DNA of 64,000 bases, taken from positions 42,118,320-42,182,319 of the forward strand of contig NC_079504.1 of assembly GCF_030052815.1 (NCBI RefSeq). Direction: 5' to 3'. The position numbers and the translations under genes are program-made. The notes under the pieces were generated by a model, which searched no databases, was not told the DNA's origin, and saw only the letters and a list, made by a program, of their open reading frames with translations. Source of the DNA: Hevea brasiliensis (Eukaryota > Streptophyta > Magnoliopsida > Malpighiales > Euphorbiaceae). Shown here in pieces: positions 3,624 through 52,079 of the stretch (its first letter is position 1; every line of letters starts with the position of its first letter).

Positions 3624-3902
3624 TCTTACTCCCTTCCATATTTGTTCAATTCTGCTATAAGACAAATGGAGCTCAACAAGTTGATCTGGTTGAAAAGTTT
3701 GTGGCAAAGATTTGAAAGGATACCCACGCCATTCCAAGTACCTTAATTCATTGGAAAGATATTCAATGTCTTTGGAGAGTTTTAAATTGCGAAGTATAAG
3801 CAATCTGAGAGCTTTCATCTTCAAGAAGGCTTTAGAACTCATGTATCTGTCTCCTTGATCAAACATATAATCCAGGACTACACCTTCAATTAGATTTGTT
3901 CC
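3624..3902 (-). pseudogene. TNL exon 3: start of the LRR domain
   Basis: A 279-base, 93-codon exon in phase 0 at both ends. Acceptor 'tttttcag' precedes GTNLIEGVVLD; the exon ends at ...IEQIWKGVR before the donor GTATGT. It carries the standard TNL linker with FLKMKALRLLIL and LRYLEWRGYPFKSLP, which begins the leucine-rich repeats, and LVELHLSYSRIEQIWKG. It has no internal stop. The reading joins cleanly to exon 4 (PLKLLKIIDLS), so the intron call is well supported. Confidence 0.88.
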
Positions 3903-4012
3903 CTGAAAAATCAAAGGCAACAATTAAAGGTGAAAACAACTGAAAGACTTATAACATTTATAATGGAAGTTTATCAAATCAAATATAATTCTTAATATTG
4001 AGTAACACTAAC

Positions 4013-5109: not shown

Positions 5110-5276
5110 CTACAATATAAGAATTTCCTATTATCATAAATAACACAATATTTTAAACATAGAAATAACATTAAAAATATGAAATGTTCAATTTTGCTCA
5201 TATCGCGCACACGGAAATTCTATAATATGCAAAGAGTATATAATAGAGAGAAATAAATAAATAATTCCTAAAACAT

Positions 5277-32048: not shown

Positions 32049-33954
32049 TCATTCGGCTGGAGGATCTCCCCCAACCTGATCTCTTGATACATCATCATTC
32101 TCTCTCTCTCTCTCTGCCTCCTCGTCACTCTCATCATCGGCCTCTGGGGCGAACTCATTCATCCAGGAGAAGTCCTCCTCAGGATATCGCTTCCTCAGCT
32201 CAACCAGGAGGTCATTGTGGGCATTTACATAAGCCCCGGCCTCCTTCATGGTACTCTCCTCTTCCTTAGCACGGAGCTCATCATCCTTGGCTCGGAGCTC
32301 TTCCTCCTTCACCCAAAGGTCCTCAGCATAGCGGGCGAGATCGACGGACCGACCAGCTCGGGAGTCTTCGAGTTCTTGCTCCACTTCCATTATCCGCTCG
32401 TCATAGCGCTTCATCTGATCTTCCATTCTGGCGATGTAGTCATTAGCAGAGGAGAGCTGAGCTCGTGCAGCGGAAGCATCTTGGACAGCCTTAAGAATCT
32501 CCTTCGACAAGGCGAGGGCTTTCTAGCTGAGCAAGTGCTAATTCGCAACCGCCTCTAAGCCTAAGCTCATTGTCTGAGCTAAGATGTCATCCATGCTCTC
32601 CTCTGCTAAACGATTTCGATCTTCTTGAAAGCAGATCGAAGCTCCCATGACTTTAGCCATGCCAGGTTTCCCCCTGGTAGAGCGGTTCCTTTCCAGGGAT
32701 TGGATCAGAAGTTGAGCACCCTGGAAGAGCGTCCTAACTGTGGGACCGAAAGATTCTCCTTCCAAGTGGGAAGAACTCGGAGGAGGCAGGGGAGGCAGAA
32801 CCTCGATTTACAGAGGAGCAGGATTGACGACCTCTGCCTCAGGGATCGGTTGTTCTTGAGGTTGCGAAGGAAAGCTCGGCACCTCTACAAATTCGCGATG
32901 AGGGGATCTGAACATCAGCTACTGTAGCCCCCTTCATTGCCCGCACTTTTCTGGAGACCTCCCTTTTTCGTTTGCGGCTCTCCTTGGAAGTATCGCCGCC
33001 TGCCGTACCTACACAGAAAGAAAGTCAGTGAGTTCGCTAAGATTCAGAGACCAGAGATATAAGTAGTACCAGGGCCGAGGTCAGAGAGCTGGAGCTCGTA
33101 TTCTTCGTCAGTAATTAGCCGCATCATCCAATACTTCAGTTCGGCCATTACTGCGTCCAAGCAAGAGAACTTCTTGGTGGCCGCCTGATCCTTTAGCTCC
33201 ATTACCATGGCATCCTCGTCCCTACTTAGGGTGATCTTCTTCGGGATCGGAGTGACTAGATGTTGCCAACTCCGTGGGATACCCTCAAAATCATTCCGGA
33301 TCTTGGTCCTCAAAATAAAGAATCGGTTTTTCCAATTCTTCAATGAAGAAGGGAGGTCGGCAAAGAGGAGCAGTTCGGTTTAGCCTGGAAAAACCAAAAC
33401 TCATCATCTTTCCTTCGGGCGAGTCTATGAAGCTCAGCAAAGACTTTAGCCATGGGTAATAGACCTTTAGCTCGGCAAAGACCCCGGAAGGCTATTAGAG
33501 TTTGCCAGGAGTTTGGGTGTACTTGAGCCACCGAGATGTGATAAAACTTTAAAACAGCCTTATAAAATTCGTCCAAAGGGAAACGGAGCCCGGTCTTCAA
33601 CTGTTCTTCGTACACCATGATGAGATCACTCTCGTCGAAGAAGTGGTCGGCTCGATGATCGCCATGACATTTAATCAGTTCAAAGGAGTCGATCCGTAGA
33701 TTGTACTTCTGGCTTATAGATTGGAGATCGGTTTCTTTCAAAACTGAAGGTAACTCATCAATTGGCAAGTTGTCTCTCCTCAAAGAGGCCCTCCGCCTCG
33801 GTCTGGCACCCGGACCAGTTATCGGAATGAGGGCTGTGCTAGTTTGACCACCCGGTCTAATCACTTCACCCTCTTCTGAGGTCCACGAGACATGGACAGA
33901 AGACGGACTCGCAGCTCTCTGACCCTCGGTGCCGCTCATTTCCAAAGAAACCAA
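32049..33954 (-). pseudogene. Antisense 'putative gypsy-type transposon' (Transposase_28-like) gene
   Basis: Starts at 33,954 (or 33,936: MSGTEG). The first exon carries GLRFPLDEFYKAVLKFYHIS, QVHPNSWQTLIAFRGLC and LHRLARRKDDEFWFFQAK, the hallmark layout of the plant gypsy-type transposon family often labelled Transposase_28; its biochemical role is unknown. A frameshift near 33,360 leads to SSLKNWKNRFFILRTK and AELKYWMMRLITDEEYELQL. A 61-base GT-AG intron (33,009-33,069) is likely. The 3' part is a long charged coiled coil (VKEEELRAKDDELRAKEEES) ending in an acidic tail and stop at 32,049. Two stops near 32,520-32,540 are in frame and one change from CAG. It lies antisense inside the large LTR-like unit. 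Confidence 0.75.
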
Positions 33955-34094
33955 AGAAGTTTAACTGAGAAAATGATCAAAAACCTTACTAGAGTGTGAT
34001 CGGTGCCGAAAACACTTGAAGAAACGAGAGAATATTGAAATGGCTGGCGAAGTGCTAAAAGTGACATAAGGGAGCAACTGACTGATGCTTCCCC

Positions 34095-34110
34095 TATTTA
34101 TACCCGTCTG
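34095..34110 (-). promoter_or_regulatory. TATA box of the antisense transposon gene
   Basis: Read on the minus strand the site is 'gggtataaatagggg', a near-ideal plant TATA box, about 140 bases upstream of the ATG at 33,954. The antisense gene therefore seems to have its own promoter within the LTR-like unit. Confidence 0.65.
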
Positions 34111-34215
34111 GGCATTTAATGCTTGCGAAGTCCCAAGTGGCATATCAATTAGCGAAATCGGCTTGCTTTCCTGACATGTCGCGGGAAGGTTCCAGAAGCA
34201 TAATAATAAAATCAA

Positions 34216-35250
34216 GCAAATGAGATTGGTTAGCTAAGGTCATCGGATCAGGGTAAATGTCCAGAGTCACGGATCGGTTAAGGACGACCTAGTTAGGAAA
34301 CAGATTGGGTAGGCATATCAGAGATCGGAAAAAGAACCAATGCAATAATTAAATAATAACCTTCAAATAAAATTTCATTTAATTTCCAAAAGGTCAGATT
34401 ACATCATTTGGGCAATCTCAAGAGATCGGATTACATCATAAAGGGAACCTTTAAAGGTCAAATTACATCATTTGGGCGATCTCTAAAGATCGGCGCTACA
34501 TTTTACCTAGTAGGGGCCTATGTCAAAGCCTATTCTTGTGCCTGAATCAAAAGATGTGTTTGATCAGAAAGCCCGCCACAAGTATCAGATAGATGTACAG
34601 CTCAGATGGGATGACTATGACTCTCATGATGGTGAGTGGAGTCATGATCGATGTCATCGACCAGAACCGAGCTGCAGTCAGGACGCCCGATGTGGTGAGG
34701 AGCCAAATGAACTTCAAGAGGCAGTCACCGACATTAAGATTGAAATTAGCAGTCCTCTTGCCCATGATAGATTCACCGATTATATCGGTAGACCAATTCG
34801 AGACCGGTACGATCGACATTTTCGATCTTGATCGGTAAATTAGTCCGGTTCCCTCACTGTCATCAGATGTGGTTCTCATGATTCTCTGATCATCAGGATC
34901 GTAAATTTTCAGGCGAGGGGCAAAGAAAACAGTCGAAAAAAAGATCAAAAGCAGTCATCATGGCCAAAATTGTTATCGAAGAAACTAGAATAGGAGAAAT
35001 GGAAAATGGAAGAAGGAGAAATGAAGTGTGGAGGAGTTTCCCTTGCGGATGCATGTATATATAGGGGGGCCTGAGCATTTATTGCCTACAGAAACTGAAG
35101 CGGATGCATCGGTATCCGAAGAATTAATTGCTTTGACTTAGGCAGGAAAGTTCTAGAATGGGAGAGATCGGGAAACGATGAGGGACCCGATGTGAGAGAG
35201 ATAAAAAAAGTAGCGGGTCGTGATAGAGAGAGCGGAAGGAGTAGAGATCG
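34216..35250 (-). other. Second, truncated antisense unit with its own TATA box
   Basis: Minus-strand reading shows a TATA-like 'cctatatatacatgc' at about 35,050-35,066, a C/T-rich leader ('ccttcttccattttccattt' type) and an ATG near 34,963 opening a short frame (MTAFDLFFDCFLCPS) that soon stops. Its 3' side (34,340-34,510) holds 'aaggtcaaattacatcattt' repeats of about 50 bases, resembling the 3' end of the first antisense unit (31,990-32,050). No protein family is recognised in the overlapping frames. It looks like a decayed duplicate of the antisense gene's ends. Confidence 0.4.
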
Positions 35251-35680
35251 GACAGCACAAAGAGGATAAAATGACTTCTGATAATCAGTGCCGAGTTAGT
35301 TAAAGCTTTGCAGGCAGATCAAATCTTCACCGCACACTTCATTTGCAAAATCGCCCACATTGCTGACAGACTCCAGGACAGTTATGACAGTCTTGTGCTT
35401 CTCAATCTTCACCGTCGATCTTACTTATAAGGACAAACCCGGAGCCCTTGGATCAAAAGATAGACGACAGGACTAGCGCCTTTTATTCCCAGCCTTCGGA
35501 TCCATCTGGGTAGGAAGGAGCCTGAGCCGTTGGATTAAAAAAGAGAAAGGACATATATTCTGAATAGGATCTCAGCCGTCCATTTTGATTCTCTTCAATT
35601 CTCAGGCATCAGATCATGTCCTTTTAAATCCAAACCTTCCATCTCCCCAGAAGAGATATTGACCCTTCATTAGGAGCACC

Positions 35681-36423
35681 TGTAACGACCCGGCCCACTA
35701 GTGATATTGTCCGCTCTGGGCCGAAGCCCTCACGGTTTTAAAACGCGTCACTAGGAGTTACGAACCGTCAACTTATAAACCCAGCATCTCTCCCGTGTTT
35801 TGTCGATGTGGGATTTGCCTAGGGTGTTACAATCCACCCCCCTTATGGGACTCAGCGTCCTCGCTGAGGTTTGCCCCACCACCGTTCAAGGTTGTACGCG
35901 GAGCGGCTCTGATACCACAAATGTAATGGCCCGGCCCACTGGGGTGAAAACTTCGTGTCCCACATCGGAAACGGGAAGAAAAGATTTGGGCCATATATGT
36001 GGGAGCCTTCCTCACCTGGTTAGTGCGCTTTTGGGAATGAAACCTCCCAAGGGACAAATCCGTGAGGCCCATGGGCCAAAGCGGACAATACTAACTGGAG
36101 AAGGATCGGGCTGTTACAATTTGGTATCAGAGCTGGACTCCCTCTAGTACGGTGTGTGGTGCGAGGACGCACCAGGCGAAAGCTGGTGGGCTTGTCACGA
36201 CCCAGGGATGGGGTTGGGACGTGCTTGTTCAACCAGCTACGCACTGGGGTGAAAACTTCGTGTCCCACATCGGAAACGGGAAGAAAAGATTTGGGCCATA
36301 TATGTGGGAGCCTTCCTCACCTGGTTAGTGCGCTTTTGGGAATGAAACCTCCCAAGGGACAAATCCGTGAGGCCCATGGGCCAAAGCGGACAATACTAAC
36401 TGGAGAAGGATCGGGCTGTTACA
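35681..36423. mobile_element. TRIM composite 1: two LTR families head to head, target duplication GCACC
   Basis: Flanked by GCACC (35,676-35,680 and 36,424-36,428). Layout on the plus strand: type-1 LTR reversed (35,681-35,831, 151 bases), its internal domain reversed (35,832-35,921), an 18-base stub of a second reversed type-1 LTR, then a type-2 LTR forward (35,940-36,118, 179 bases), its internal domain with PBS 'tggtatcagagct' (36,119-36,244), and a second type-2 LTR (36,245-36,423). The head-to-head junction shares CACT. TRIMs are tiny non-coding LTR elements mobilised by proteins of others. It sits in the U3 part of the giant LTR. Confidence 0.9.
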
Positions 36424-36432
36424 GCACCCATT

Positions 36433-36442
36433 CCTTATAAAT
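36433..36442 (+). promoter_or_regulatory. TATA box of the giant LTR-like unit
   Basis: 'ttataaatac' just right of TRIM composite 1, followed by a transcribed-looking leader ('tgtagagggacggacg'). It is the best candidate for the LTR promoter, which would make the first 5 kb U3 and the last 2 kb R-U5. Confidence 0.45.
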
Positions 36443-37456
36443 ACTTGCATGCAATACTGTAGAGGGACGGACGAAAAGGTGATGATTATAGTGGAAAGGC
36501 TCTGAAACTTGATTGAAGTCCTGCTACTCTGCTATTTTAAGTTTTCATGAGATAGAGAAACTTCAGAAACCAGTTTTCTTAAGTATCTCCATTGAAGGAG
36601 TGTTGAACCCTGAAACTTTTCATTTTCAGTTTGTTCACTGCTCTGCGATACCATTTCTCAGTTTGGTTTTGTCTTTATCATCTTAATATCAGCATTTTAT
36701 TCTCCAAGCTTAATCTCATTCCAACCCGGTTACTGTCACTTCGGCTCAACTGCATTCTAACTTGATATTTCAAAGTAGGCATTAGTCTATAGGCTATCTG
36801 CTCGCAGCTCTATAATATTTGTGGCTTCGCAGTTAGTTCAATAGACTCAACCTCCCACAGGTAAGTGTCTAGACTGTTGCTTTATCAAATGCTCGTGTTT
36901 TATTTTCTTTTTTTTCATGCTCGTAATTTTCATTAAGTTCAGTTATACTAAAGAGCCCCACGTAGATCCTTCAGGCCGATAGTCATTCTCTTGAGTTTAC
37001 TTTTTTCTGTTCATCAGTTCATGTTATTTATTTATTCTTAGCTCTTATTTCCTTCGAATATAGGTGTGCTGGTTACGGGTAACGTGTAAGTAGTTAATTA
37101 AAATGTTGATAACTGTATCTTAACACGATAATTTTTTTTAAAAAAAACAAGTAAAAATAATAAAAGTTTGAATAAATCGGAGGAAAAGTCATGAAGTCGA
37201 ACTACTAAACGAGCTCAGGGGATAACCTAGTATAGTGGGAATCGAGATCGGATTCCAGTTTAGTAAATGAAAGAAATCGGACATTGTCTGCTAAAGAATT
37301 CTAGTAAGGCGATCATAAAGGAGATCGGTAAAAGCTCGGTCTGGTATCCCCTCCCTAGTTATAAGGCATCAATGGGTTCAGAGAAGCCTCGCTCGGGTTC
37401 CTGGTGCCTTCAAGTGTCAAAACCCTTAGCCTAGGGTCCTCAAGATATGCGATCGT

Positions 37457-38090
37457 ACCGAATACTTTAAGAGATTGGGAGAGAGTTCTTACCCGATTCT
37501 CATCCAAAATATAAATAAAACATGGAGATCATAGGAGAGTTCTTATCCGAGATCCTTCCTAAAAAAAAACTTTAAATCGAATACTTTAAGAGATCGGGAG
37601 ATAGTTCTTACCCGATTCTCATCTAAAATATAAATAAAACATGGAGATCGAAGGAGAGTTCTTATCCGAGATCCTTCCTAAAAAAAAATTTTAAACCGAA
37701 TACTTTAAGAGATCGGGAGAGAGTTCTTACCCGATTCTCATCCAAAATATAAATTAAACATGGAGATCAAAGGAGAGTTCTTATCCGAGATCCTTCCTAA
37801 AAAAAAAAAAACTTTAAACCGAACACTTTAAGAGATCGGGAGAGAGTTCTTACCTGATTCTCATCTGAAAATTTAAGTAAAACAAGGAGACCAGAGGAGA
37901 GTTCCTATCCGAGATCTTTCGTTAAAATTTCAAACTGAACATTTTAAGAGGTCAGGGGAGAGTTCTTACCTGATCCTCATCCAAATCAAATATGAGGAGA
38001 TCGGAGGAGAATTCTTATCCAAAATCTCCCGCTTGAAACTTTAAATAAAATATATCTAGAGATCGGGAGAGGTCCCATCCCGAGCTCTCT
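37457..38090. repeat. Minisatellite, five to six units of about 118 bases
   Basis: Units begin 'cgaatactttaagagatcgg' at about 37,458, 37,577, 37,696 and 37,819, with more diverged units near 37,935 and 38,045. Each contains 'gagagttcttacccgattct' and 'gagagttcttatccgagatc', itself an inner half-repeat. It lies in the presumed R-U5 part of the giant LTR. Confidence 0.9.
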
Positions 38091-38521
38091 TAGTGAAACC
38101 TAAAATGGACAAAAACTCCAATACATAAGACGACTTTATCCGAACACCTATTCATTAAAGGGCCATCTCATGAACTCGTGTTCTTGGACAACCGTAGACA
38201 AGTGATATATCAAACACTCCTTTACTTTTGCACAAAGGATTAACATTATCACCATCCCAACCCCCTAATTACCCTTTTAATTTATAAAAGAGCATAACAT
38301 TAAATTTGTTTACCCTTACTGAGGGACGAGGCAGGGTGCCTAACACCTTCCCTGCCCGTATACGGACCCTGAACCTAGAATCTCTGTTTTTAAAGTGGTT
38401 TCTTTCTAATTTACCTTCACAAATGGTTTTCTTTAATTTCCCTCAAAATTAAAGTGGCGACTCCTCACTTTTCCCACTTCGGTGAGTGTTCGTCCAGGCG
38501 ACCGCAAAATGCCTTGTGACA

Positions 38522-39210
38522 ATGGCAATATTTCACAAATGTCTCTTATGCAGAACTTAATTTTACAAACTTGTATTGTGCAATTGTGATGGATTCTGCA
38601 TATATTGATGTGTTTTTTTATGATAATTTCTCATGATTTATGCTTTACAGGATTACATTTCTTCATTCTCAAGTATTTTTCAAACTTGCAAAACATTTTT
38701 TTTTTGTAATATGAATCTTGTTGAAATGTGCATAAGTAACTGCATAACTTATGCAATCTTGCATAACCAAATTTTTGCCATTTCATTTCTTGCCGAAAAC
38801 TGTATAAGAAAGTGCATAACTTATGCAATTCTGCACCGCCACAATTTTTGCCATTTTTCATTTCTGTCGAAACTTGCATAAGTTTGTGCATAACTTATGC
38901 ACTCTTATATGACTAACTTTATGAACTTCCCATTCTTGCCGAAACTTGCATAAGAACTTGCATAACTTATGCACACCCATTTTCCCTTATGTAGAAAATC
39001 GCACGTCCTGTGCAAATCAAAATTTTCGGCACACTCCACTTTCCCACCTCCCACTTCCCGTCGTTTCTATTCACAACCACCTTCCTTCCCATTTTTCTCA
39101 ACATCAATCCCTCTCCCCACACCCCTTTTCGCCGATCGATACCTAACTTCCCCTCTATCTCTTTTACTTCCTTCTTCCCTCCTCCATTCCCACCATCGTC
39201 GACCACTACC
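38522..39210 (+). other. Athila-like env leader with palindrome cluster
   Basis: Non-coding lead-in to the env-like ORF. It contains four perfect copies of the 15-base palindrome 'tgcataacttatgca' (38,741, 38,813, 38,887, 38,959), each preceded by a half-site 'cataag' or a near variant. A pyrimidine-rich stretch (39,040-39,200) leads to ATG 39,211 in the strong context 'accatgg'. Confidence 0.75.
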
Positions 39211-40821
39211 ATGGAAATCCATTCCTCTCAAGGCTCTCCTCTCCAAGTCATGCCCCTAGCAATGCAAGCCCCCAATCTCGATTCTCCTCCACAACAAACC
39301 CCTCCACCTCCTCCTACATCCACCTATAAAAGGAGAATCTGGTCTAAATCAACCTGTCCCATGGCCTCTGCACCACCTCTAGCAAAACACAAGGACCCAC
39401 CTGCTACTCCACTTTTGGAGCCTACACCTAAAAACCCCAGAACTTCGGCTTCCGCACGACAAGGAGTTGGTGTTTCTACCTCTACCCCATAAGCCAAATC
39501 TCCCTCCTCTAGTAAAAAGCAACCTTCAGCAGTGGCAACATAGGTATCCAAACTACCTTGGCCTCTTCCTAATGCAACTCATAAGGCAACTTTTAAGAGG
39601 CTAAAGGACAGAAAAGTGCAACTCACTATGTACATTTCTGCAGATGCTCTTCAATCTGTTGGTTTGTTTGATAATGTTGTTGCCTACCTTGATGGTCTAG
39701 GTTGGATGGAATTTGTGCATAAATAATTATTAGTTTATCCAGCCCTAGTTTTGGAATTTATTTCCTCATTTTTTGCTACTATGAAATTGCATGAGATAGA
39801 TTACATGCCAACTATGAAATTCAGGTGCTTAGGGCAAAATAGAGAGCTATCATTAGACCAATTTCACAGTATCATTGGGTTTGCTATTGATGGATTGTTT
39901 AGGGTCCCATATACAGGCATAGAGGTAGCAAATAAAGGTGTTTGAAATGCTGTTCAGTTTTGGAGAAGTATTATAAACCAATCTCAGAGTTTTTATGCTG
40001 GCAGATCCAAGACCTCCCAAATAATAGACCCAACACTTAGATTTATCCATAGGCTTATTACTAGCACCATCTTGGGCCGAGGGACTAGTTTTGGTGCTGT
40101 TGGAAAATCTGACTTGTTCATGTTATGGTGTGCTTTTCACAAAGTCAAAATATCTCCTGGTTACATCTTCTGTGAACATGTGCTGCATATTGCTACCAAA
40201 TCTGTAGGCGATATAGTCATGGGTGGGCTCATAACTGTTATAGCTAAACATTTTGGTTTCAATCCGGAAGAGCATCCTCTACCAGCACTTTCAGACACTT
40301 TATATTTTGATGCTACTCACTTATCCAAGACTGGATTCAATTTGCCAGCATTTGACACTGCACAACCAGTAGCAGATATAGGACCATCTGCACAACCAGA
40401 GGCACAACTTGCTCCAGCAGTCCAACAGCCTTCTGCTAAACCTGCACCACCTACTCAATCTGCACAGCCAACACCATCTGCAGCTAGACCCTCTTCATCC
40501 ACAACATCTCCTCCCTTCAACACTAAAGCCTTATTCACTTATCTTGAGAGGCTTAGTGATGATGTATATTTTGTGGATAGGAAGCTTAAATCTGGTCTTG
40601 ATACCCTTAAGGATCGTCATGATCAACTCTTTGATCTTGTTATGGAAACCAGAGACAAGCAGAAAGAGTTGAAAGAGATGATGAAGTAGCTCATGGCTTT
40701 TCTGGGAATTCCACCTCCACCTCCATCACCTCCTCCAGAACCACCCCTTCAGTAGTAGCCAGCTCCATCTAGTCCTCTAGTAGCACCTTTGGACAAGGGC
40801 AAAACCATAGAATTAGATTAG
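39211..40821 (+). pseudogene. Athila-type env-like / ORF-1 protein, seven stop codons
   Basis: A single frame of 537 codons from ATG 39,211 to TAG 40,819. The N-terminal 120 residues are proline/serine-rich. The middle matches the Athila env-like (putative plant transposon protein) family: LVYPALVLEFISSFFATM, IDYMPTMKFRCLGQNRELSL, FHSIIGFAIDGLFRVPYTG, FMLWCAFHKVKISPGYIFCE and VMGGLITVIAKHFGF. The C-terminal part is Pro/Gln/Ser-rich and ends in a coiled coil (LERLSDDVYFVDRKLKSGLD). Its role is unknown; a retroviral-type envelope has been proposed for Athila. Internal stops at 39,490, 39,541, 39,724, 39,943, 40,687, 40,753 and 40,756 can each be explained by one C-to-T change; no frameshift was found. 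Confidence 0.82.
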
Positions 40822-42175
40822 TTTTTATCTTGCTCTTGTTCAACTTTTAGGAGCTTTTCCTTTTAGATGTGCTGGAACAATTTTAGTCTATCTTGAATTC
40901 TATTTTCTTGAAGTACAATTGGATGGCTATTCAATTGGTTTTTCATTGCTTTTCATTGCCTTTGCTGCCCTTTTGTGCATACTTGTCAATACATTTTATA
41001 TATTTACATACCTCTGCTGGTGTTTGCAAGTTTTTCTTTAATATATCATTATGCTACAGCTTTTCAATATACTGCATAGGCTGTGAAACTCCTTATGCAA
41101 ATGTTCTGCATAACCTATGCAGTCCCTTATGCAACTCATGCCATACTGCATAGCTTATACATCCTCCTTATGCACCTGTTCTTCAAAGTATTTATTCTGC
41201 ATAACCTGTGTAGCTTTCTTATGCATCACCATCATCTTTTGAATTCACATTTTAGATGCTAAAACACTACTCTATACCAGGTAACTCTTTCTTTTTGCTT
41301 TAAAACTTAACTATTCCTGGTTATTCCTCTTTGCTTTGAGTTTTCATGCTGCACTGCCTTAGTAAGGTCAATGTCTAATTTTGAGTTTGGGGGTGTGTGC
41401 ATTTTGATTTTTGCTACATTTTTCATATTTCGAGTATAGGAACATCTCATCCCATTCCATTTACATATATATTATAAATATTTTACATACACATCCATAC
41501 ATTCATATACATAACACATTCACATACACATTATACATCACTTAGAAATTATACACATTGCATACAAATAGATTTCTTCCATTTAGTTAATGCATTGCTC
41601 ATTTTTAAGAATCATGCATCATGAAATAAAATCTTTTGCCAAATCCCTTGAGTAATGAGAAGTTGCCTATGAGAGTGACTTGACTTACCTTAAGTTGGGT
41701 TTGTAGATTAAAAGTTTGCTGAGAGGTGCAAAGTTTTGAAGTGTTTATCCCTTGCCTATATCTTCTTAGCCAAAAGCCACTCAACTAGTCATTTGGAGAT
41801 GGAAGTGTTTAGAGAGAGTTATTGGATAAAAGGTAGTCAAGTGATGTCTCACCAATCCTAGAACAAATTTTCTAAACCTTTCAAGGCGAAATACCAGCCT
41901 GTACTTGAAAAGAGAGATGATTAGGCATTCTTTGATTTAATCTTTCTTATTTTAAACCTTTGGCCTTTTTCCTAATTAAAATTAACCCTTACAAACCCCT
42001 TTGAGCCTTTATATTCCTAATTTTTCTTGAAACCCTTATTGCTACCTAGCCAATGAACCAAACACTCCAACCCTTTTCATGAGAATAATTATTTATAATA
42101 TTAGGTACACTTTATATACCCCTAAAAAAAAGAGAGAGAGAAAAATATATATAATAATGAAAGGGAGAAAAAATG
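40822..42175 (+). other. Athila-like env-3' LTR spacer, left part
   Basis: No gene. 41,060-41,230 has a decayed run of 'tgcataacctatgca'-like palindromes and half-sites, and 'gagtttgggggtgtgtgcat' at 41,381 resembles the polypurine tract before the LTR at 44,603. The rest is AT-rich. It continues after the TRIM array at 43,840. Confidence 0.6.
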
Positions 42176-43834
42176 TGTAACAGCCCGATCCTTCTCAAGT
42201 TAGTATTGTCCGCTTTGGCCCATGGGCCTCACGGATTTGTCCCTTGGGAGGTTTCATTCCCAAAAGCGCGCTGACCAAGTGAGGAAGGCTCCCACATATA
42301 TGGCCCAAATCTTTTCTTCCCGTTTCCGATGTGGGACACGAAGTTTCCACCCCAGTGCGTAGCTGGTTGAACAAGCACGTCCCAACCCCATCCCTGGGTC
42401 GTGACAAGCCCACCAGCTTCCGCCTGGTGCGTCCTCGCACCACACACCGTACTAGAGGGAGTCCAGCTCTGATACCACAAATGTAACGGCCCGGCCCACT
42501 AGTGATATTGTCCACTCTGAGCCGAAGCCCTCACGGATTTAAAACGCGTCAATAGGGGTTAGGAACCTCCATCTTATAAACCCAGCATCTCTCCCGTGTT
42601 TTGTCGATGTGGGATTTGCCTAGGGTGTTACAATCCACCCCCCTTATGGGACTCAGCGTCCTCGCTGAGGTTTGCCCCACCATCGTTCAAGGTTGCACGC
42701 GGAGCGGCTCTGATACCACAAATGTAATGGCCCGGCCCACTAGTGATATTGTCCGCTCTGGGCCGAAGCCCTCACGGTTTTAAAACGCGTCAATAGGGGT
42801 TATGAACCACCAACTTATAAACCCAGCATCTCTCCCGTGTTTTGTCGATGTGGGATTTGCCTAGGGTGTTACAATCCACCCCCCTTATGGGACTCAGCGT
42901 CCTCGCTGAGGTTTGCCCCACCATCGTTCAAGGTTGCACGCGGAGCGGCTCTGATACCACAAATGTAATGGCCCGACCCACTAGTGATATTGTCCGCTCT
43001 GGGCCGAAGCCCTCACGGTTTTAAAACGCGTCACTATGGGTTACGAACTGTCAACTTATGAACCCAGCATCTCTCCCGTGTTTTGTCGATGTGGGATTTG
43101 CCTAGGGTGTTACAATCCACCCCCCTTATGGGACTCAGCGTCCTCGCTGAGGTTTGCCCCACCATCGTTCAAGGTTGCACGCGAGCGGCTCTGATACCAC
43201 AAATGTAACGGCCCGCCCACTAGTGATATTGTCCGCCTCGGGCGAAGCCCTCACGGTTTTAAAACGCGTCAATAGGGGTTATGAACCACCAACTTATAAA
43301 CCCAGCATCTCTCCCGTGTTTTGTCGATATGGGATTTGCCTAGGGTGTTACAATCCACCCCCCTTATGGGACTCAGCGTTCTCGCTGAGGTTTGCCCCAC
43401 CATCGTTCAAGGTTGCACGCGGAGCGGCTCTGATACCACAAATGTAATGGCCCGACCCACTAGTGATATTGTCCGCTCTGGGCCGAAGCCCTCACGATTT
43501 TAAAACGCGTCACTATGGGTTACGAACTGTCAACTTATGAACCCAGCATCTCTCCCGTGTTTTGTCGATGTGGGATTTGCCTAGGGTGTTACAATCCACC
43601 CCCCTTATGGGACTCAGCGTCCTCGCTGAGGTTTGCCCCACCATCGTTCAAGGTTGCACGCGGAGCGGCTCTGATACCACAAATGTAAAGGCCCGGCCCA
43701 CTAGTGATATTGTCCGCTCTGGGCCGAAGCCCTCACGGTTTTAAAACGCGTCACTAGGGGTTACAAACCATCAACTTATAAACCCAGCATCTCTCCCGTG
43801 TTTTGTCGATGTGGGATTTGCCTAGGGTGTTACA
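42176..43834 (-). mobile_element. TRIM composite 2: tandem array of six LTRs plus one type-2 LTR, target duplication AAATG
   Basis: Flanked by AAATG (42,171-42,175 and 43,835-43,839). From the left, all reversed: a type-2 LTR (42,176-42,354), a type-2 internal domain (42,355-42,481), then type-1 LTRs of about 151 bases at 42,482, 42,723, 42,964, 43,204, 43,443 and 43,684, separated by five internal domains of about 90 bases. The period is 241 bases. In the element's own sense each internal domain starts with PBS 'tggtatcagagcc' and ends with a polypurine tract 'aaggggggtggat'. The outer ends belong to two different LTR families yet share one target duplication. Short open frames across the units are artefacts. 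Confidence 0.92.
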
Positions 43835-43839
43835 AAATG

Positions 43840-44618
43840 CTTGTCACCTTGTAAAAGTGTTAGTATATGTGCTTTTCACTGTTGTCATTCAAATTGAAAG
43901 AAATCCACCCAAAGTAATTAAAGGAAATGAGTTTGGGGGTGGCATTTTTAGGGACAATCATTAAGAGAAAATATAAGATACAAGCATAAAGTTTCAAAGT
44001 GTCCCTCCATTTTATGTATTTTGTAGAATATGCTAGCAATTGAAAATTCTCATTGTGTATTTCTCTCCTCTCAAAAAAAAAAGGGTAATAAGAGGTGTAC
44101 CTTATGTTTTCAAGATTAAAAATATTCTCATGCTTTGAATCCCTTTTCCCCTTTTCCTTTTTAACCTCATATTGAACCCTATAGCCCCATTACATTCCCT
44201 AAAAGACCTTTGATCTCTTGATAGTACTTGCTACATTAGTGGAGATAGGAGTAGGGAGTTTGACTATGGGATTGGAAATTTATTCATTCACTCATTAAAT
44301 TCCATCATTCTATATAGAGACACTTTGGCTATTGATTGTTCTAGAATTCCTTTTGAGCATGACTTTCTCTTTTGATTGGTTGGTTTGGGAATTTTGAATG
44401 ATAATTGACTTGATGGCTAAGCGGTGAAAGCTTGGATAAGCATTAGATTCTTTGCATCTTGAAGGATGGGTATATGGATTGTTGGTATGGCTAAAGGTAT
44501 GTTAAGTTACTTTAATAGGTGATTTTCATTGCTCTTTGGACAAGGCACCCCTAAAAATTTTTGCATTATGTTTTAAAGTTTGCTTGAGGACAAGCAAAGA
44601 TTTGAGTTTGGGGGTATT
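43840..44618 (+). other. Athila-like env-3' LTR spacer, right part, with polypurine tract
   Basis: Non-coding. It contains 'gagtttgggggtggc' near 43,929 and the working tract 'gagtttgggggtatt' at 44,603-44,618, directly before the LTR start TGATATATG. 'cttgaggacaagcaaag' just upstream also occurs, reversed, beside the LTR of the minus-strand element (58,731), which supports the same lineage. Confidence 0.65.
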
Positions 44619-46193
44619 TGATATATGAATTTTGCATAGTCATTTAGGTTTAATTTCATGGCCATTTTATTTAATTGTTAGTCACTTTTAGCTAATTTTA
44701 TTAGTTATTTAGATAGTTTTTCATGGTTGTTAATTTTTGGATTAATTTGTAATTTTACTTTATTTTGTAGGAAAAATGGTGTTTTTGAGGGACTAAAAAA
44801 GAAATTTTGCCAATAAGGAGTGATTTCTACAGCCAAAGATATCAAAAATAAGTTTTAAAGTTGAAGTATGAAGTGGCCAAATTGTGCATAACTTGCCGCA
44901 TAAGTTGTACAGTTCTGCACAGGGAGAAGAAGCAATTTTTCCATTCCTGCCAAAATCTGCATAAGTCACTGCATGACTTATGCAGACTTGCTCCATGCTT
45001 ATGCAGCTTCACACAGAGGGCCCAAAAACCTGCTGAAAACTGCATAAGGGACTGCATAACTTATGCAATCCACTTATGCAGTTTCATAGAGTCTTTATAA
45101 TGAGCTGGCGGAAGATTCCCTCATGAAAACTACACCTCAAACACACCATTTTAGGGCTACTTGTCACAAAAAAAAAGATATAAATAGGTTCTTATCTTTA
45201 GAGAAAAAGGATGAGACAAAAAAAAGGCAGCAGCAGGGGAAGAGTCAGAAAACAGAGCAAAATGTCACCTCTCCATTTCTAGAACAGATTTGGAGTTTTC
45301 TTCTTTTCTTCCCTATTTCCTACCTTTCTTGCATTGGGTTTCTTAGTTCTTAGCTTAGATTTAAGATTTCTTTCTATATTTACTTAGAATCTCTTATAAA
45401 TATTATGGATAGTGAGTAGTTTTCATAGATTCTGGAGTTGGGATGTAATATTTGAGATATTTTGTGGATTTTGATTGGGTAATCTATATTTTGTGGGTTT
45501 TATGAAGTTTTATCCATTTCTTGTGTGCTTAATGACATGCTTAGTGTAGGATACCATTAAGTATTATTTTTAATCCATGGTTAAAGCACTGAAAGGAGAA
45601 AACCATGTGATAGATAATCAAGAAATTGGACTTAATTAACTTAGATCTAGAAATAGACTAGGGATTAAGAGGATCGACAGATTGATTAAGGAACTTAATA
45701 GGTCTTGATTAATTTTGACTCCACGAAAGTAGGATTAGATTGATTAAGGCACTCTTTGTCTCACTCAAAAGAGTATTCAAAGGATTAATAATTAATCTCT
45801 TTAAAACCCATAATTTCCATGAGATTGGATAACCAATGTAAAAATCCCAAAATAGATTGAATATGAACTCCCAAACTCCGGAATCGCCCTTTTATCATTA
45901 TTAATTTATAATCAAATTTAATTGCTTACATTTCAAATCTTGCTATATTTCAATTTGTTTATTTTAACTTGCCGCAAATTTAGCTGAAGCTTCGCATTAT
46001 TAATTAGATTGTTAATTTTGCATATATAGATTTCACACTTCAATATCCATCAATATATTACTTTAATTTCAAAATTATTTCAAATTAGTCAATTTTTATA
46101 TCAAAAATTCAATCATTAACACAACTCTTCGTGGGAACGATAACTTTTCTATATTACTTGTACGGCCCGTGCACTTGAGGTTAGGACACATCA
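44619..46193 (+). repeat. 3' LTR of the plus-strand Athila-like element
   Basis: Starts TGATATATGAATTTTGC right after a polypurine tract and ends '...cacttgaggttaggacacatca', about 1,575 bases. The 3' end phrase 'ttcgtgggaacgataact' is typical of Athila LTRs. It contains further 'tgcataacttatgca' palindromes and half-sites (44,880-45,085; perfect copy 45,053-45,067). The right flank ATGAT belongs to chromovirus gag; the left partner is lost. Confidence 0.82.
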
Positions 46194-46906
46194 ATGATGA
46201 TCCAGCCACAGCAGAGTATTGGCTAGAGAGGACAGAGAGGGTATTGTAGCAATTACACTGCACCCCAGAGCAGTAGTTGGAGTGTGCTCTGTTACTACTA
46301 TAGGAGGATGCTTATAGATGGTGGGTGATAGTATCGAGGGTGGTACAGCCTGCATAGATTACTTGGGAGTTCTTTCTGGCTGAATTCAGAAAGAAATACA
46401 TCAGCCACGTGTACTTGCATGCTAGAAGGAGAGAATTCCTGGCACTGAGACAGAGGCAGCTTACAATCTCCGAATATGAGCAGGAATTCACGAGACTTAG
46501 TGGATATGCATTGGAGTTGATGTCCACAGAAATTAAAGAATACAGAAGATTTGAGGACGGACTGAATGACAACATCAGGTTGATAGTGACATCCCATCAC
46601 TTCACAGACTTTTCCTAGTTGATAGCATCAACCCTGGATATGGAGAGAGTCAGAGATGAGGAGCAGTCCAGGAGGGATAGGCAACGTAAAAGAGGCTCCG
46701 GATATAGTTAGTATGGTTCAGCAACCACGGGTAGTAAGAGGCCCAAGGAGTGTCAGGGTCAAACTCAGGGCCGGGGCAAGAGGCAGAAAGCTCAATTTGC
46801 TCCAAGGAGAGGAGGAGGACAGTCTGGTGTATTAGTGGGTAGTTCACCTGGTGCAGCTACACGGGGATTAGCCCCACCACCAGCTTATACACATTGTGGG
46901 ATGCCC

Positions 46907-47391
46907 TGTAACACCCTAGGCAAATCCCACATCGACAAAACACGGGAGAGATGTTGGGTTTATAAGTTAGTGGTTCGTAACTCCTAGTGACGCGTTTTAA
47001 AACCGTGAGGGCTTCAGCCTAGAGCGGACAATATCACTAGTGGGCCGGGCCGTTACATTTGTGGTATCACTAGGAGTTACGAACCACCAACTTATAAACC
47101 CAGCATCTCTCCCATGTTTTGTCGATGTGGGATTTGCCTAGGGTGTTACAATCCACCCCCCTTATGGGACTCAGCGTCCTCGCTGAGGTTTGCCCCACCA
47201 TCGTTCAAGGTTGCACGCGGAGCGGCTCTGATACCACAAATGTAACGGCCCGGCCCACTAGTGATATTGTCCGCTCTAGGCCGAAGCCCGCACGGTTTTA
47301 AAACGCGTCAATAGGGGTTACAAACCATCAACTTATAAACCCAGCATCTCTCCTGTGTTTTGTCGATGTGGGATTTGCCTAGGGTGTTACA
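46907..47391. mobile_element. TRIM composite 3: palindromic element, target duplication TGCCC
   Basis: Flanked by TGCCC (46,902-46,906 and 47,392-47,396). Layout: a full forward type-1 LTR (46,907-47,057), the first 11 bases of the internal domain ('tttgtggtatc', the start of the PBS), then an abrupt switch to a reversed partial LTR (47,069-47,150), a full reversed internal domain (47,151-47,240) and a full reversed LTR (47,241-47,391). The switch point shares TCA between the PBS and the LTR interior. Two outer LTR ends in opposite orientation carry one target duplication. Confidence 0.92.
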
Positions 47392-47568
47392 TGCCCACAG
47401 AGGAGAGTGCAGATTATTGATTGGTGGATGCTTCAGATGCGGGTCTATGGATCACTTCCTGAAGGATTGCCCATAGCGGGGTGCTAGTGTTCCCACTGCT
47501 CCACCCCAGACAGAGAGACCTACCCTAGCAGCACAGAGGGGTAGAAGACTCGCGAGGCCTGATATAGC

Positions 47569-49665
47569 TGTTAGTAGTATGCCCTAGAGCATATCATTTA
47601 GTATGTATCTTGTACATATTTTTATTAATAAAAGGCATTTCCACTTTTCCGTTTACATAATATATTTATGTGTAATAGAAAAGGTCCATTGATATTTTAT
47701 TAGAAATATTATTCTTAAGTTGTTAAGAATATGAGTGACAATATTTCTAGCATGAAGTATCATAAATAGGTTCACAATCGAGGATACTTCATAATAAGGA
47801 CATGACTTATCCAGAAAGATTGTATTCGTGTTTGTTCCCAAGTTATTTATGTGAGATATAAATAAGATGGAATGGTGAGTCTCATGCCATATAACAAACA
47901 TGATAGGCACTTATAAATGATAAGTAGGCCGAACCAGTGACACTTATGACAAGCACATGGAGTTTACTCTTGTTAATATTTTGTCATAAATCATATCAGT
48001 GCATATAATCTTTAGACCTGAGATAGCACAGTTATCTTGTATATAGGTAGTTTGAGTTTGATACTGCTTTCATACTTGTACTGTGTATGGGTATATGGGC
48101 ATGTGTTGGCTCCTACTAGTTATATATGGAGGTAGGTGTTGATCAAGATGGAATCTGTTCCTCTAAGTAAATAGAGATAAAATCCTATGTTCATTTAATT
48201 GTTCTTGATGTTTCAAGTTCTGCCAGACAGATAGATTTATTCGAAAAGAGTTTCGATGAGGAAATCTTTTAATCAAGAACTGGAATTAAAAGAGAACATA
48301 ATATTCATAGCAAATGGAGTTTGACATAAACCATGACTCGGCTTGAGTTGGGATTTTGTAAATGTAGAGATTCTAGTGCATGGTAACATATGATTATAGG
48401 TTCATTTAAGGTAAACCTTATTACTAATTGGGTGGCCATGGCATGCTATGCTAGGTGTTAACCATGGTCTATGAGGTTCATAAAATGATTTAGAGAAATC
48501 ATTTATGGTAAGAAAGAGTTCTGATGATATTAAGAGTTGATATCATGTCTCATTGCCAATTAGTGATGAGCCTAGTAAGTCACACACATACACAAGTTAT
48601 CACCTAATTAAATATGATTTAATTAATTAATTAAAGAGTTTAATTGATTAATTAAATAGGTTTGGTTTGCAATTAGTTTGCAAAGTCCCTAGCATGACTT
48701 GAAACCAAATCTAGATTGTTGGATGTATAATATAAGTTAAATTTATATTTAAAGTGTTTAAATATGAATTTAATTAATGAGAAATTAATTAATAGAGATT
48801 AATTAATTAATTTATATTTGATATAAATTGATTAGAAGAAGAAAAATAATTATTTTGTGTTAAGAACTCAAAATTAAGGCACAGGGGCATTTTGGTCATT
48901 TTGCAGTGTGACACGTGGCACCATGAGATGGTGACACATGGCATAACACATAAGCTTGCCAAATGTTTTTTTAATCATGTAAGATGATTAAAATCAAGAT
49001 TAAATATAGGTTTGACACTTGGCACAATGTGATTAGGTCACTTAAACCTAGAGCTAATCAAAGGGTGACATGTGGCAAGGGTTTAATGTGTTAACCTAGC
49101 TATTTAAGTGTTGTTATGAGAAAATAAAATACAACCAGCAGCCACACTCCTTGGTCACGCCATTTTGCAGCCCTCCCTCTATTCTTCTTCATCTCTCATC
49201 AATTCAAAGAGATTAGCCATCAATCTCTTGAATTAAGAACACTAGAAATTGTTTCTAGTGTCCTGTTTACATCTCTAATCTCTTAAAAGGCAGAACTTGA
49301 ATTTCTAATTAATAGAAAAGGCTTTAGAAGCTGTTCAAGGGCTGCCATAGGTGTTCTTGGTGTGGACAAGCTAGAGGGACAACATCTGGTGTCCTGAAGA
49401 CGAATCTCAAAGGCGCAGACATTGCGTGCATCAAGAGGTTAGTGTAATTGTTCTTGATTTAATCTAGGTTCTAAAATTAATCTGATTAATTTTAAAATCT
49501 TAAATGGCAAATACAGATCCAAAAACATATTAAAAGAGTTTTAATATGTTGTTTATCATTGAAATCAAATAGATAAAAATAAATCTTGCATGATACATGT
49601 GACCCTAGGTGAAAATTTTGAATTCAATGGTATAAACTTGTGTTTTTCATGCTTCCGTTCCTTCA
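47569..49665 (+). repeat. Copia 5' LTR
   Basis: Starts TGTTAGTAGTATGCCC and ends ...CTTCCGTTCCTTCA. 2,097 bases. It contains an internal run of TTAATTAATTAA words (48,610-48,820) and 'acacgtggcaccatgagatg' (48,911), which includes an ACGTG core of the G-box/ABRE type. The partner is at 55,007. Confidence 0.93.
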
Positions 49666-49680: not shown

Positions 49681-51455
49681 ACTATATTTGCCATTTAGAT
49701 TGTTGATTATATAATTTAATTGTGTGTTTGATCATGAGATCAAAAGATTATTGCTGGTTGCAAAGCAAGGTGGCGGCATACTTGAAAAAAGACCATCAAT
49801 GGTGCGCATGGTTTGGCTACCATGGGTGGTTCAAGGTTTGGCTTTTAATTCTGCAATTGTTGTATGATCTAAGGCCTATTCTTTGACTAATTAAAGTGTT
49901 TAATTAGTAGTTTTAATCACACAATTAAATTATGATTCAAATCAGAATTTTAAAAATTGTTTGAATGTGATTCAAATCTGAATTTTAAAAGTTGTTTGAA
50001 TGTGATTCAAATCTGAATTTTTAAAGTTGTTTGAATCATATTTAAATCTGATTTTTTAAATTTGATTGAATAAAATTCAGATCTGATTTTTTAAAAAATG
50101 TTTGAATGTGATTCAAATATGATTTTTTAAAAAATGTTTGAATGTGATTCAAATCTGAATTTTTAAAGTTGTTTGAATGTGATTCAAATCTGAATTTTTA
50201 ATTTTGTTTGAATGAGATTCAAATCTGAATTTTTAAATTTATTTGAATCATATTCAAATCTGGATTTTTAAGTTGAATATGAGATATTCAATTTAATTTA
50301 AGTATGTATGTTTTATTTAATTGTTAAATAGTGATATGCATGATGGATGATCATGGACTATAAAAGACCAATGTGATTGGATTTATTTCTTTTATGTTTC
50401 TTTGGGATTGTAAATTAATTAATTTATTTTAATTTATTTTGGGCATGTATTATTAAGTTTGTAATAATTTTTGGGTTGTAATTTCATTTATTTAAGTTCT
50501 TGTAAATTCGCCTTGGTATGCCAAGGATTACCATGTAATATTGGATTGCAAGAAGTTCAAGGAGGTCAAGAGCATTGGTGAGACTAGTGGGAGGAATTCA
50601 AGATCAAGTGTTGATTATGTACTCCTTCAGCAACTCTTGTAAAATGAATGAATGAATGAAATGCACCTAGGAATGCCCTGATTCAATTCTTGGTGGCTCA
50701 GAATTGAATCCCTTAGAAAGTCCATGATCATACCATATTTACTGCTTATCCATGAATGCATGAGATGTATGGGAATGTATGCAATTATATGATATATGCA
50801 TGCTAAATGGATAATGTGCAAAGTGAGACCTTAATAGTAATTAGAATGACCATAAAATCTTCCAAACAAATGATTAAGTTGGATATGCTATAATTAAAGT
50901 AATTATAATATAGGCCCTCCATTGGGGCAATTATTTTAAGAAATTTTAAATAGTTGCATGAGATGCAATTAATTTAAGAGATTTTCTTAAGAATAATTGT
51001 TAAGCATGAGATGTTGTAAATATGTAAATGGTTTGGTGGCCAATATTGGATGTACCTGAGGACATTAAAATTATTTACATAATTACTGGCTCAATGGGAT
51101 CAACTTAACTAATGCAAGATAAGTCAATAATGGATGTACCTGAGATTTTGAGCATTAGGGGCTAGGTAAAGGATTGAACCTCACATGAGATGTGATGGGC
51201 AAGGAGTTGCTCACTTATAGTTTATTGTAATTCCAATAACGGATGTACCTGAGGATGATCAATAGAATTATAAGAATTCAATCACTCACTAGAAATCCAT
51301 CCAACTAGGATTTCCGTTTTCTACTTTGGAAGTGTAGGATTCGCTAAGTTAGTGGGAGGACCAATTTGATTAAAAGACCATAATCATTTTGGTTAATTAC
51401 ATGATACATTTACTAATTAATCTGGTTATTTTCTGTAGTTAATTTTCTGATAAAA
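49681..51455 (+). other. Copia 5' leader with tandem repeats
   Basis: A 1.8 kb untranslated leader. 49,925-50,275 has about ten units of some 35 bases ('gtttgaatgtgattcaaatc'), within which 'gattcaaatctgaat' is partly self-complementary. Between 51,040 and 51,260 'ggatgtacctgag' occurs three times. Such long, repeat-bearing leaders often hold packaging signals; that role here is inferred. Confidence 0.75.
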
Positions 51456-52079
51456 ATGAGCACAAAACAACCACCACCATCCAATATCCTTGCAAGCATA
51501 CTTGATCACAATAGGTTGACAAGACCTAACTTGTCTGATTGGCTAAGAAATTTGAAACTTGTCCTGAACCTTGAACATATAGGATATGTTCTAGATTCAA
51601 ATGTTCCTGGTCCCTTACCTCCAGAGGCCACACAAGAGGAACATGAAACTTTGGACAAGTGGAAGGAGCATGATATGAGAGCTAAGTGTTACATGCTTGC
51701 TTCCATGAGTAATGAGTTACAGAAGCAACATGAGAACATGCAGAGTGCGAGTGAGATCCTCCTTCACCTACAAGAGTTGTATGGTGAGCATAGCAGGAAT
51801 GCTAGGTATGAGATATCTAGACAGCTATTCCGTATGAGGATGTCTGAGGGACAGAATATTGGGGATCATGTCCACAAGATGATTCGGCTGATTGAGCAGT
51901 TGGAACATCTTGACTTCAACATGGATTTCCAACTACAAACGGATTTGATCCTTCAGTCCCTTCCTGAGTCTTTTGGGAATTTTGTGACAAATTTCCATAT
52001 GACTAAACAGGAATGCACCTTAGTTGGTTTACTTAACATGCTGGTTATTGCCCAAAAGAATATGCCAGATAATAAATGA
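51456..52079 (+). CDS. Copia gag (capsid), 207 residues, open
   Basis: The gag polyprotein forms the virus-like particle that packages the element's RNA. The frame starts at ATG 51,456 and is open for 207 codons. It reads LTRPNLSDWLRNLKLVLNLE, then HDMRAKCYMLASMSNEL, LQELYGEHSRNARYEISRQL, and GQNIGDHVHKMIRLIEQLE, the typical Ty1/copia capsid (UBN2-like) fold with the conserved LQTDLILQSLPESF segment. It ends at TGA 52,077, after which the lysine-rich part and knuckle continue in another frame. This is the only intact retrotransposon ORF of appreciable length in the window, and a plausible source of capsid if transcribed. Confidence 0.88.
   Translation: MSTKQPPPSNILASILDHNRLTRPNLSDWLRNLKLVLNLEHIGYVLDSNVPGPLPPEATQEEHETLDKWKEHDMRAKCYMLASMSNELQKQHENMQSASEILLHLQELYGEHSRNARYEISRQLFRMRMSEGQNIGDHVHKMIRLIEQLEHLDFNMDFQLQTDLILQSLPESFGNFVTNFHMTKQECTLVGLLNMLVIAQKNMPDNK

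Follow-up and report, generated by a model that had tools for sequence, protein, structure and literature searches.

Patchwork TRIM insertions, probably integrated as cDNA concatemers assembled beforehand from two interacting element types

Results

The window, i.e. the whole 64,000-nt stretch within which all coordinates given here are positions, carries three composite insertions, A, B and C, built from two types of TRIM. Type a has an LTR of 151 nt and an internal region of 90 nt (151+90+151 = 392 nt), and type b an LTR of 231 nt and an internal region of 74 nt (231+74+231 = 536 nt). Both have the marks of a TRIM: two LTRs, a length of less than about 1 kb, no coding capacity as judged by length only, and, after the 5' LTR, the same primer binding site (PBS) TGGTATCAGAGC, which we take to match initiator tRNA-Met. 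The purine tract before the 3' LTR is AAGGGGGGTGGAT in a and the weak GCTGGTGGGCT in b. The normal junction of b-LTR, PBS and b internal region is present at 259 exact places genome-wide. A reading of the b-LTR as 179 nt from TGGGGTG, by which A would be an exact insertion at an LTR end, was dropped because of the longer repeat TGTCACGACCC. A retrozyme, with a hammerhead ribozyme in its LTR, was also considered, and window positions 34000-49000 gave no Rfam match at the gathering score. A DNA search with the internal region, of a kind that skips very common words, returned no matches.

Composite A (743 bp, 35681-36423) is inverted and also mixes a and b LTR types. On the minus strand lie a full a-LTR with its U5 end as the outer end (35681-35831), an a internal region with the PBS TGGTATCAGAGC (35832-35921) and the last 18-19 nt of a second a-LTR (35922-35940). 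An inverted junction with the shared word CACT (35937-35940) leads over to the plus strand, with nt 50-231 of a b-LTR, the first 49 nt being absent (35937-36118), a b internal region with its PBS near the left end (36119-36192) and a full b-LTR whose U5 end is the other outer end (36193-36423). The b part is thus nearly a whole LTR-internal-LTR element, and since its two LTRs are identical across their common 182 nt, A should be young. The perfect 5-bp duplication GCACC stands on both sides (35676-35680 and 36424-36428).

Composite B (1,659 bp, 42176-43834, between perfect 5-bp copies of AAATG at 42171-42175 and 43835-43839) has no inversion and mixes a and b LTR types. It lies entirely on the minus strand, and consists of a full b-LTR (42176-42406), the b internal region up to the PBS (42407-42477) and six a-LTRs with five shared a internal regions (42482-43834), the a-LTRs starting at 42482, 42723, 42964, 43204, 43443 and 43684. 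The point of the b/a switch is the 12-nt PBS common to both types (42466-42477, minus strand; GCTCTGATACCA on the plus strand). The a-LTRs are of differing haplotypes and form a two-unit repeat, in which LTR2 resembles LTR4 and LTR3 resembles LTR5; the a internal regions are only 0-1 substitutions apart, one of them with a 1-nt gap. Apart from its b end, B is a known kind of tandem array.

Composite C (485 bp, 46907-47391) is flanked by the perfect 5-bp duplication TGCCC (46902-46906 and 47392-47396). Its left piece, on the plus strand, is a full a-LTR with the U3 end outermost (46907-47057), followed by 12 nt that comprise the TTTG spacer and the first 8 nt of the PBS (47058-47069). After an inverted junction with the shared word TCA (47067-47069) come, on the minus strand, nt 1-84 of an a-LTR (47067-47150), an a internal region (47151-47240) and a full a-LTR, again with the U3 end outermost (47241-47391). 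With its end 8 nt inside the PBS copy, the left piece resembles a plus-strand strong-stop product. A preliminary description of this locus had the lengths, positions and single perfect duplications of all three composites right, and also their scrambled multi-LTR layouts, the head-to-head inversions in A and C, the mixed LTR families in A and B, and the shared words of four (A) and three (C) bases at the inverted switches. It had proposed a search for the same junctions at other loci: that of C is found at one further place in the genome (locus L088), with its own duplication GAACT, and that of A was found nowhere else in a genome search and is unique to its locus.

The wider comparison was made within the window's own genome (1.88 Gb). 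Duplications of 4-6 bp are typical of TRIMs, and besides A, B and C a perfect 5/5 duplication is present at 37 of 75 family elements outside the window; when right flanks were dealt at random among these 75, the mean was 0.245, which places the duplications beyond chance. Inversions occur in 20 of the 37, and in 22 of 40 perfect-duplication elements when A, B and C are included. The outer ends of these 22 are U3/U3 in 17 cases, U5/U5 in three, and U3/U5 in two, both with two inversions. Two outward U3 ends are found in 23 of 35 inverted composites. Outer ends of the U3/U3 or U5/U5 kind cannot have been made by inversion inside an inserted element. The earlier suggestion that A, B and C were already rearranged at integration is supported.

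The elements were drawn from two samples. The query-based one, obtained by searching with an LTR flanked on either side by internal sequence, is biased towards arrays. For the positional one the loci of 42 of 859 matches were fetched, yielding 33 elements with a bias to those with more internal regions, and in its last 12 loci, picked from isolated matches, a bias to simple elements; 15 of the 33 are inverted, in line with the suggestion that recombination is habitual in this TRIM family. One positional match (L048) was counted in the other sample (as L033). The structure count left aside 17 loci that were repeat views of counted elements, clusters of fewer than three pieces, and L076, an element cut by the end of its locus. 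L004 and L043 are one locus, so that the 79 elements are 78 distinct ones; neither has a duplication, and 22/40 is unchanged. Simple LTR-internal-LTR elements of type a number 14 in the sample. In five of these 14 the two LTRs share a four-site haplotype, and LTR differences average 6.1 within an element against 10.8 between elements; the expectation of like LTRs in simple elements thus held in part.

Direct fusions of LTR ends are found at many places in the genome. U5-U5 fusions occur at 92 places (reversed control 0), and among the 50 of these that were listed, 49 keep at least three spacer bases of either type on one side, 35 do so on both sides, and none has a zero-length spacer. U5-U3 fusions number 65 (control 0): in 53 the spacer starts with TTTG or ATT, in 53 it finishes with AT, and in 46 it does both; the exact TTTG+AT join is found in 11, and a zero spacer in two, both within one long array. 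For U3-U3 fusions the initial pattern was unspecific (136 places, control 3, including other LTR families), and a family-specific pattern gave six places (control 0) with AT on one or both sides. Exact AT|AT is present in one of these six, and exact TTTG|CAAA in three of the 50 listed U5-U5 fusions. The word TGGTATCA can pair with itself, two of the pairs being G-T, and TTTG-TGGTATCA-CAAA appears twice among the same 50. The pairing of a ends with a ends agrees with random joining of a pool in which 73% of the ends are U5 (chi-square 1.9; of the three counts, one was extrapolated from an incomplete list).

At inverted junctions, 17 of 63 endpoints fall at aI1-6, the untrimmed U5 end (1.57 expected, p=1.8e-13). 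U3 termini hold 2/63 (1.3 expected), no clear enrichment, in a bin that missed two endpoints at aL1, one of which is a nested insertion in L031. A peak at the start of R (aL90-109) was not found (7/63, expected 5.2), and PBS positions aI7-16 are not enriched (5/63, p=0.12). There is also an excess at aL130-151 (13/63 against 5.75 expected, p=0.004), which lies outside the explanation that we propose. This endpoint set excludes inverted junctions whose pieces lie more than 12 bases apart (e.g. L022, L056, L077 and L084) and retains one nested-insertion joint of L031. At the 24 gap-free inverted junctions the pieces have a mean of 1.9 nt in common, or 1.5 nt when one 12-nt palindrome is left aside, where 0.67 would be expected at random, and 13 of 37 inverted junctions have 1-12 inserted bases. 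The junctions of A and C join internal sequence to internal sequence with four and three shared bases, and do not have the precise untrimmed-end signature.

Discussion

Patchwork TRIMs are common throughout this genome and often contain the leftover end bases of joined free DNA copies. We think that each of A, B and C was inserted once, as a cDNA concatemer pre-built by a recombining TRIM family in which types a and b interact, and give this a probability of about 0.72. Two processes would be at work. In the first, strand transfer between several packaged RNAs during reverse transcription would give arrays with shared LTRs and, at the common PBS, switches between a and b, as in B. In the second, linear cDNAs, whole or incomplete, would be joined end to end ahead of trimming by integrase, in any relative orientation, the two ends having a few bases in common, having none, or receiving a few extra ones; A and C would be joins of incomplete ends. 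Integrase would finally insert the concatemer by its outermost LTR ends, U3+U5, U3+U3 or U5+U5, and leave one 5-bp duplication. Joining of cDNAs into concatemers by the host would be comparable to the formation of T-DNA arrays.

At the listed fusions the bases due for removal by integrase (TTTG at U5, AT at U3) are mostly still present, which argues that in many of the joins unprocessed linear cDNA was ligated before integration. Such bases beyond the LTR ends, as in 2-LTR junctions, are found family-wide, and not in exact form in A and C, whose joined ends are incomplete. What can be read from the sequence are the single duplications, the types of outer ends, the mixed source haplotypes and the unprocessed bases that many of the family's fusions have kept. 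The joining agent, host end joining and not end-to-end jumping of reverse transcriptase, is what we infer, and likewise the cellular site of joining. The interpretation in the preliminary description is partly supported: template switching between RNAs, which it proposed, is consistent with B, with the tandem arrays and with a/b chimeras at the PBS, but the missing piece would be ligation of unprocessed cDNA ends, which was not among its proposals. The simplest strand-transfer model leaves some arrays uncovered, as the outer LTR pair is strictly the most alike in only 7 of 15 same-orientation arrays. It also counts against our explanation that many loci are old and that some differences post-date insertion.

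The strongest competitor, possible though rather doubtful, is that reverse transcriptase makes all the joins, without a ligase, by jumping, end to end or at microhomologies, among the RNAs and cDNA strands of a single particle. The shared bases at gap-free inverted junctions (above random), the inserted bases at others, the endpoint of C 8 nt into the PBS and the self-complementary TGGTATCA in its twice-seen fused form would all agree with this, and for A and C, where the exact untrimmed-end signature is missing, template switching is an equally good explanation. The exact TTTG|CAAA, TTTG|AT and AT|AT joins, however, resemble blunt joins of finished double-stranded ends, and the spectrum is like that of 2-LTR-circle junctions, which the relevant part of PMC3148978 ascribes to end joining.

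That simple insertions were later rearranged by genomic recombination or inversion with their ends untouched is improbable. Recombination between elements is the published account of the Wukong arrays (PMC4528315), and the two-unit pattern of B could be a later duplication, but such events can yield neither the U3/U3 or U5/U5 ends that directly adjoin the perfect duplication in 20 of 40 elements nor untrimmed cDNA bases at fusions. Still less probable is self-integration of cDNA, which had also been proposed for this locus, or nesting of one element in another with later loss of one end. Nesting does occur in the family, as L031, a U3/U3 composite with its own CTCAC duplication inside an a-LTR, served as a positive control; yet no internal duplication is present at the switch points of A, B or C. 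The junctions of A and C have no LTR terminus, nor, as an autointegration product would, a processed CA end attached to an internal position, and zero spacers are absent from the 50 listed U5-U5 fusions and confined to one long array among the U5-U3 ones. Local misassembly of repeats can practically be dismissed, since many loci, on different contigs, have such structures together with perfect duplications, and comparable maize TA-TRIM structures, with an inverted pair among them (Fig. 2), had been confirmed by PCR and sequencing according to the passages concerned (PMC4717578).

TRIMs in tandem have been published before, and so has an inverted pair of TRIMs within a single duplication. The TA-TRIMs (Gao et al. 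2016, PMC4717578) are, like the composites here, multi-LTR TRIMs inside one duplication, and the legend of Fig. 2C has one element with two inverted TRIMs and the TSD CTTCA; unlike here, the pertinent sections give no rate of inverted forms, junction analysis, unprocessed ends or U3/U3 or U5/U5 integration. A TA-TRIM has at least three LTRs and at least two internal regions per insertion. B, with seven LTRs, is one; A combines two internal regions with four LTR pieces, of which two are truncated; C, with three LTR pieces, one truncated, and a single internal region, is strictly not. Sabot and Schulman (2007, PMC1950507) likewise described complex LTR elements that lie between duplications, for which they invoked strand transfer among RNAs packaged together; such elements were rare (two in about 7 Mb of Triticeae sequence, one each in rice and maize). 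Their four cases, as presented in the sections at issue, have three LTRs, one of them internal and the outer two alike, with inversions unmentioned; here A and C are inverted, and the outer LTRs of A and B differ in type, so that outer LTRs most alike with a third in line is not the pattern found. The tandem LTR-retrotransposons of rice and other plants were also interpreted as products of one insertion each, with one TSD, but are in the account given full-size, with a common internal LTR and without inverted fusions (PMC11899658). Cassandra forms long TRIM arrays too, for which template switching and a small size favouring concatenated cDNA were suggested; in the portion that treats them these are tandem, of almost identical units and without inverted forms (PMC7215508). 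In retroviral 2-LTR circles linear cDNA ends are similarly joined by non-homologous end joining, but the product is described there as circular and does not integrate (PMC3148978), whereas here the joins would be intermolecular and the product integrates. Onsen shows high-frequency recombination between family members during transposition, the products reported in the relevant text being pairwise (PMC5668417), as against the inverted concatemers here. PMC12312487 deals, in the part at hand, with DNA transposons. What looks new is the frequency, the signature of unprocessed ends and the free pairing of LTR ends.

Conclusions

It is an even question whether the TRIM family spreads largely as pre-assembled concatemers, in which tiny cDNAs from different source loci would be joined by host end joining before trimming, integrase would take any two outward LTR ends, and rearranged composites could be mobilised again; the layout of C at two loci with different target duplications points to the last of these. 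Bases of untrimmed cDNA, two at U3 and three or four at U5, are fossilised at fusions, and the origin of multi-LTR TRIMs, by recombination before or after insertion, therefore becomes testable from sequence alone. Productive use by integrase of two U3 or two U5 ends is also suggested. LTRs within one insertion often differ in source haplotype, which makes LTR divergence a poor clock for TRIM composites, and for annotators there is a risk that such composites could pass for degraded nests. If the reading is true, small size makes a retrotransposon a combinatorial assembler of LTR promoters.

Results

The preliminary description had placed three TRIM composites in the window, each inside a single perfect 5-bp target duplication, and both points were confirmed with the coordinates exact. 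The composites are built from two TRIM types, a and b, whose 12-nt PBS is identical. Type a has an LTR of 151 nt (TGTAACACCC...TTACA) and an internal region of 90 nt, where TTTG is followed by the PBS and the 3' end is GGTGGAT; type b has an LTR of 231 nt (TGTCACGACCC...GTTACA) and an internal region of 74 nt, starting with ATT and then the PBS. Composite A (35681-36423, GCACC) is an a element (-) head to head with a nearly whole b (+), U5 ends outermost, and because its two b-LTRs are without difference across 182 nt it is a young insertion. Composite C (46907-47391, TGCCC) joins an a-LTR (+) plus 12 nt to an a element (-) that is truncated, and its U3 ends are outermost. Both joins are between incomplete ends sharing 4 bases in A and 3 in C, a pattern that does not distinguish microhomology end joining from template switching. 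Composite B (42176-43834, AAATG) is b joined in line, at the common PBS, to six a-LTRs with five a internal regions, and its LTR haplotypes differ while the internal regions between them are nearly identical. The PBS switch and mixed haplotypes are consistent with strand transfer involving several RNAs. The same switch is found at family loci L024, L044 (twice) and L061, and close to the PBS in L007 and L055. In 7 of 15 direct arrays the two outer LTRs resemble each other more closely than any other pair does, as strand transfer predicts; in the other 8 they do not. At locus L041 (G000:C3:23458892-23465933) some 30 a-LTRs, facing both ways, form an array 7 kb long in which blocks are duplicated; b elements are present no more than tens of kb away, and the region may therefore be a hot spot.

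The window also holds pieces of an NLR-type disease-resistance gene with LRR and NB-ARC coding (Pfam; 2372-5219, minus strand), a Transposase_28 (putative gypsy) match (33340-33960, minus), an ATHILA ORF-1 match (39946-40689, plus), Copia gag and reverse transcriptase pieces (51417-54708, plus) and five to six tandem copies of about 119 bp (37442-38070). The NLR, Athila and copia pieces indicate a plant genome. Repeats of a palindrome-like form, TGCATAAG..CTTATGCA, follow one another at intervals of about 73 bp (38714-38976, 41107-41133, 44870-45070) and recur far apart in either orientation.

In the 1.88-Gb genome we annotated 79 elements (78 distinct), the window's three included. A perfect duplication flanks 40 of them: 18 uninverted, 17 U3/U3 inverted, 3 U5/U5 inverted and 2 U3/U5 with two inversions. 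Among 75 elements, 37 perfect duplications were observed against 0.245 after shuffling the right flanks. The suggestion that composite structure is general in the family held, as 20 of the 37 perfect-duplication elements outside the window are inverted. A positional sample, drawn along contig C1 with a 45-mer from the internal region that has 859 exact matches in the genome, gave 15 of 33 elements inverted, and 9 of 16 with a perfect duplication. Sampling was uneven throughout, and none of the proportions in this paragraph should be read as a copy-number fraction for the TRIM family as a whole. Outer ends across all 79 elements are U3/U3 in 23 and U5/U5 in 4.

Discussion

That composites integrated already rearranged, one of the two readings offered in the preliminary description, is borne out by their ends where these are alike. 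A later inversion of a simple insertion is rejected, since inverting a segment within an element already in place keeps a U3 at one outer end and a U5 at the other, and U3/U3 and U5/U5 are seen. Nested insertion does leave a recognisable trace: at L031 (1127-2606) a U3/U3 composite, flanked by a CTCAC duplication of its own, interrupts an a-LTR belonging to a second composite, the pair lying inside an outer ATTGT duplication. No such inner duplication was seen at the switch points of A, B or C, and nesting is rejected for them. Where U3/U3 or U5/U5 ends lie flush against matching duplications, the molecule must already have had such ends when integrase acted, and like-ended composites of this kind need rearrangement before integration.

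The search proposed in the preliminary description, for the same junctions at other loci with other duplications, found a second case for C and none for A, whose inverted junction occurs at a single place in the genome. The junction of C has one further place, L088 (G000:C516:26500-28300), with identical layout over 486 aligned bases, flanks unlike the window's and a GAACT duplication read by eye; the automated call gave none because the terminal CA is now TA. The two differ at 22 positions, 12 within one outer LTR and 0 within the internal region. Repeated independent joining is conceivable, as inverted junctions are numerous in the genome, but the minor allele 76T, present in both LTR pieces meeting at the junction, favours one shared origin.

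Untrimmed linear cDNA keeps bases beyond the LTR ends until integrase removes them; for type a, AT before U3 and TTTG after U5 are expected from their positions in the element. At 37 inverted junctions, positions 1-6 of the a internal region hold 17 of 63 a-type endpoints against 1.57 expected, and U3 termini show no clear enrichment among the same endpoints. The last 22 nt of the a-LTR (130-151) hold 13 of 63 against 5.75 expected, an excess. Genome-wide patterns, with reversed controls at 0, found 92 U5-U5, 65 direct U5-U3 and 6 U3-U3 fusions. Among the 50 U5-U5 fusions listed of the 92, none has a zero-length spacer, 49 keep at least 3 unprocessed bases on one side or both, and in 27 the two ends are both complete and untrimmed. 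The U5-U3 spacers have TTTG or ATT at their start together with AT at their end in 46/65, are exactly TTTG+AT in 11/65 and are absent in 2/65, both within one duplicated array. The a-a fusions alone (U5-U5, 34 of 50 listed, scaled to about 63; U5-U3, 55/65; U3-U3, 6) match random end pairing with U5 ends at 73%, where the scaling is an estimate and arm lengths differ among the three patterns.

Complexes inside one duplication (PMC1950507), tandem TRIMs with one inverted pair within the TSD CTTCA (PMC4717578) and Cassandra and rice tandems (PMC7215508, PMC11899658) were already published. The LTRs of Wukong reportedly share one orientation as a rule; its LTR (230 bp) and internal region (72 bp) resemble type b in size (PMC4528315). 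Searches of an open-access library turned up no report that integrated TRIM fusions preserve untrimmed cDNA ends, or that insertions with U3/U3 and U5/U5 ends are common.

The pattern GGKYGTKACAN{0,16}TGTMACRMCC, two LTR-start-like ends head to head, occurs at 136 places genome-wide (control 3). Many of these seem to belong to other LTR families, whose ends are TGTAACACCC/TGTCACACCC. Head-to-head end fusions may form in other LTR families too.
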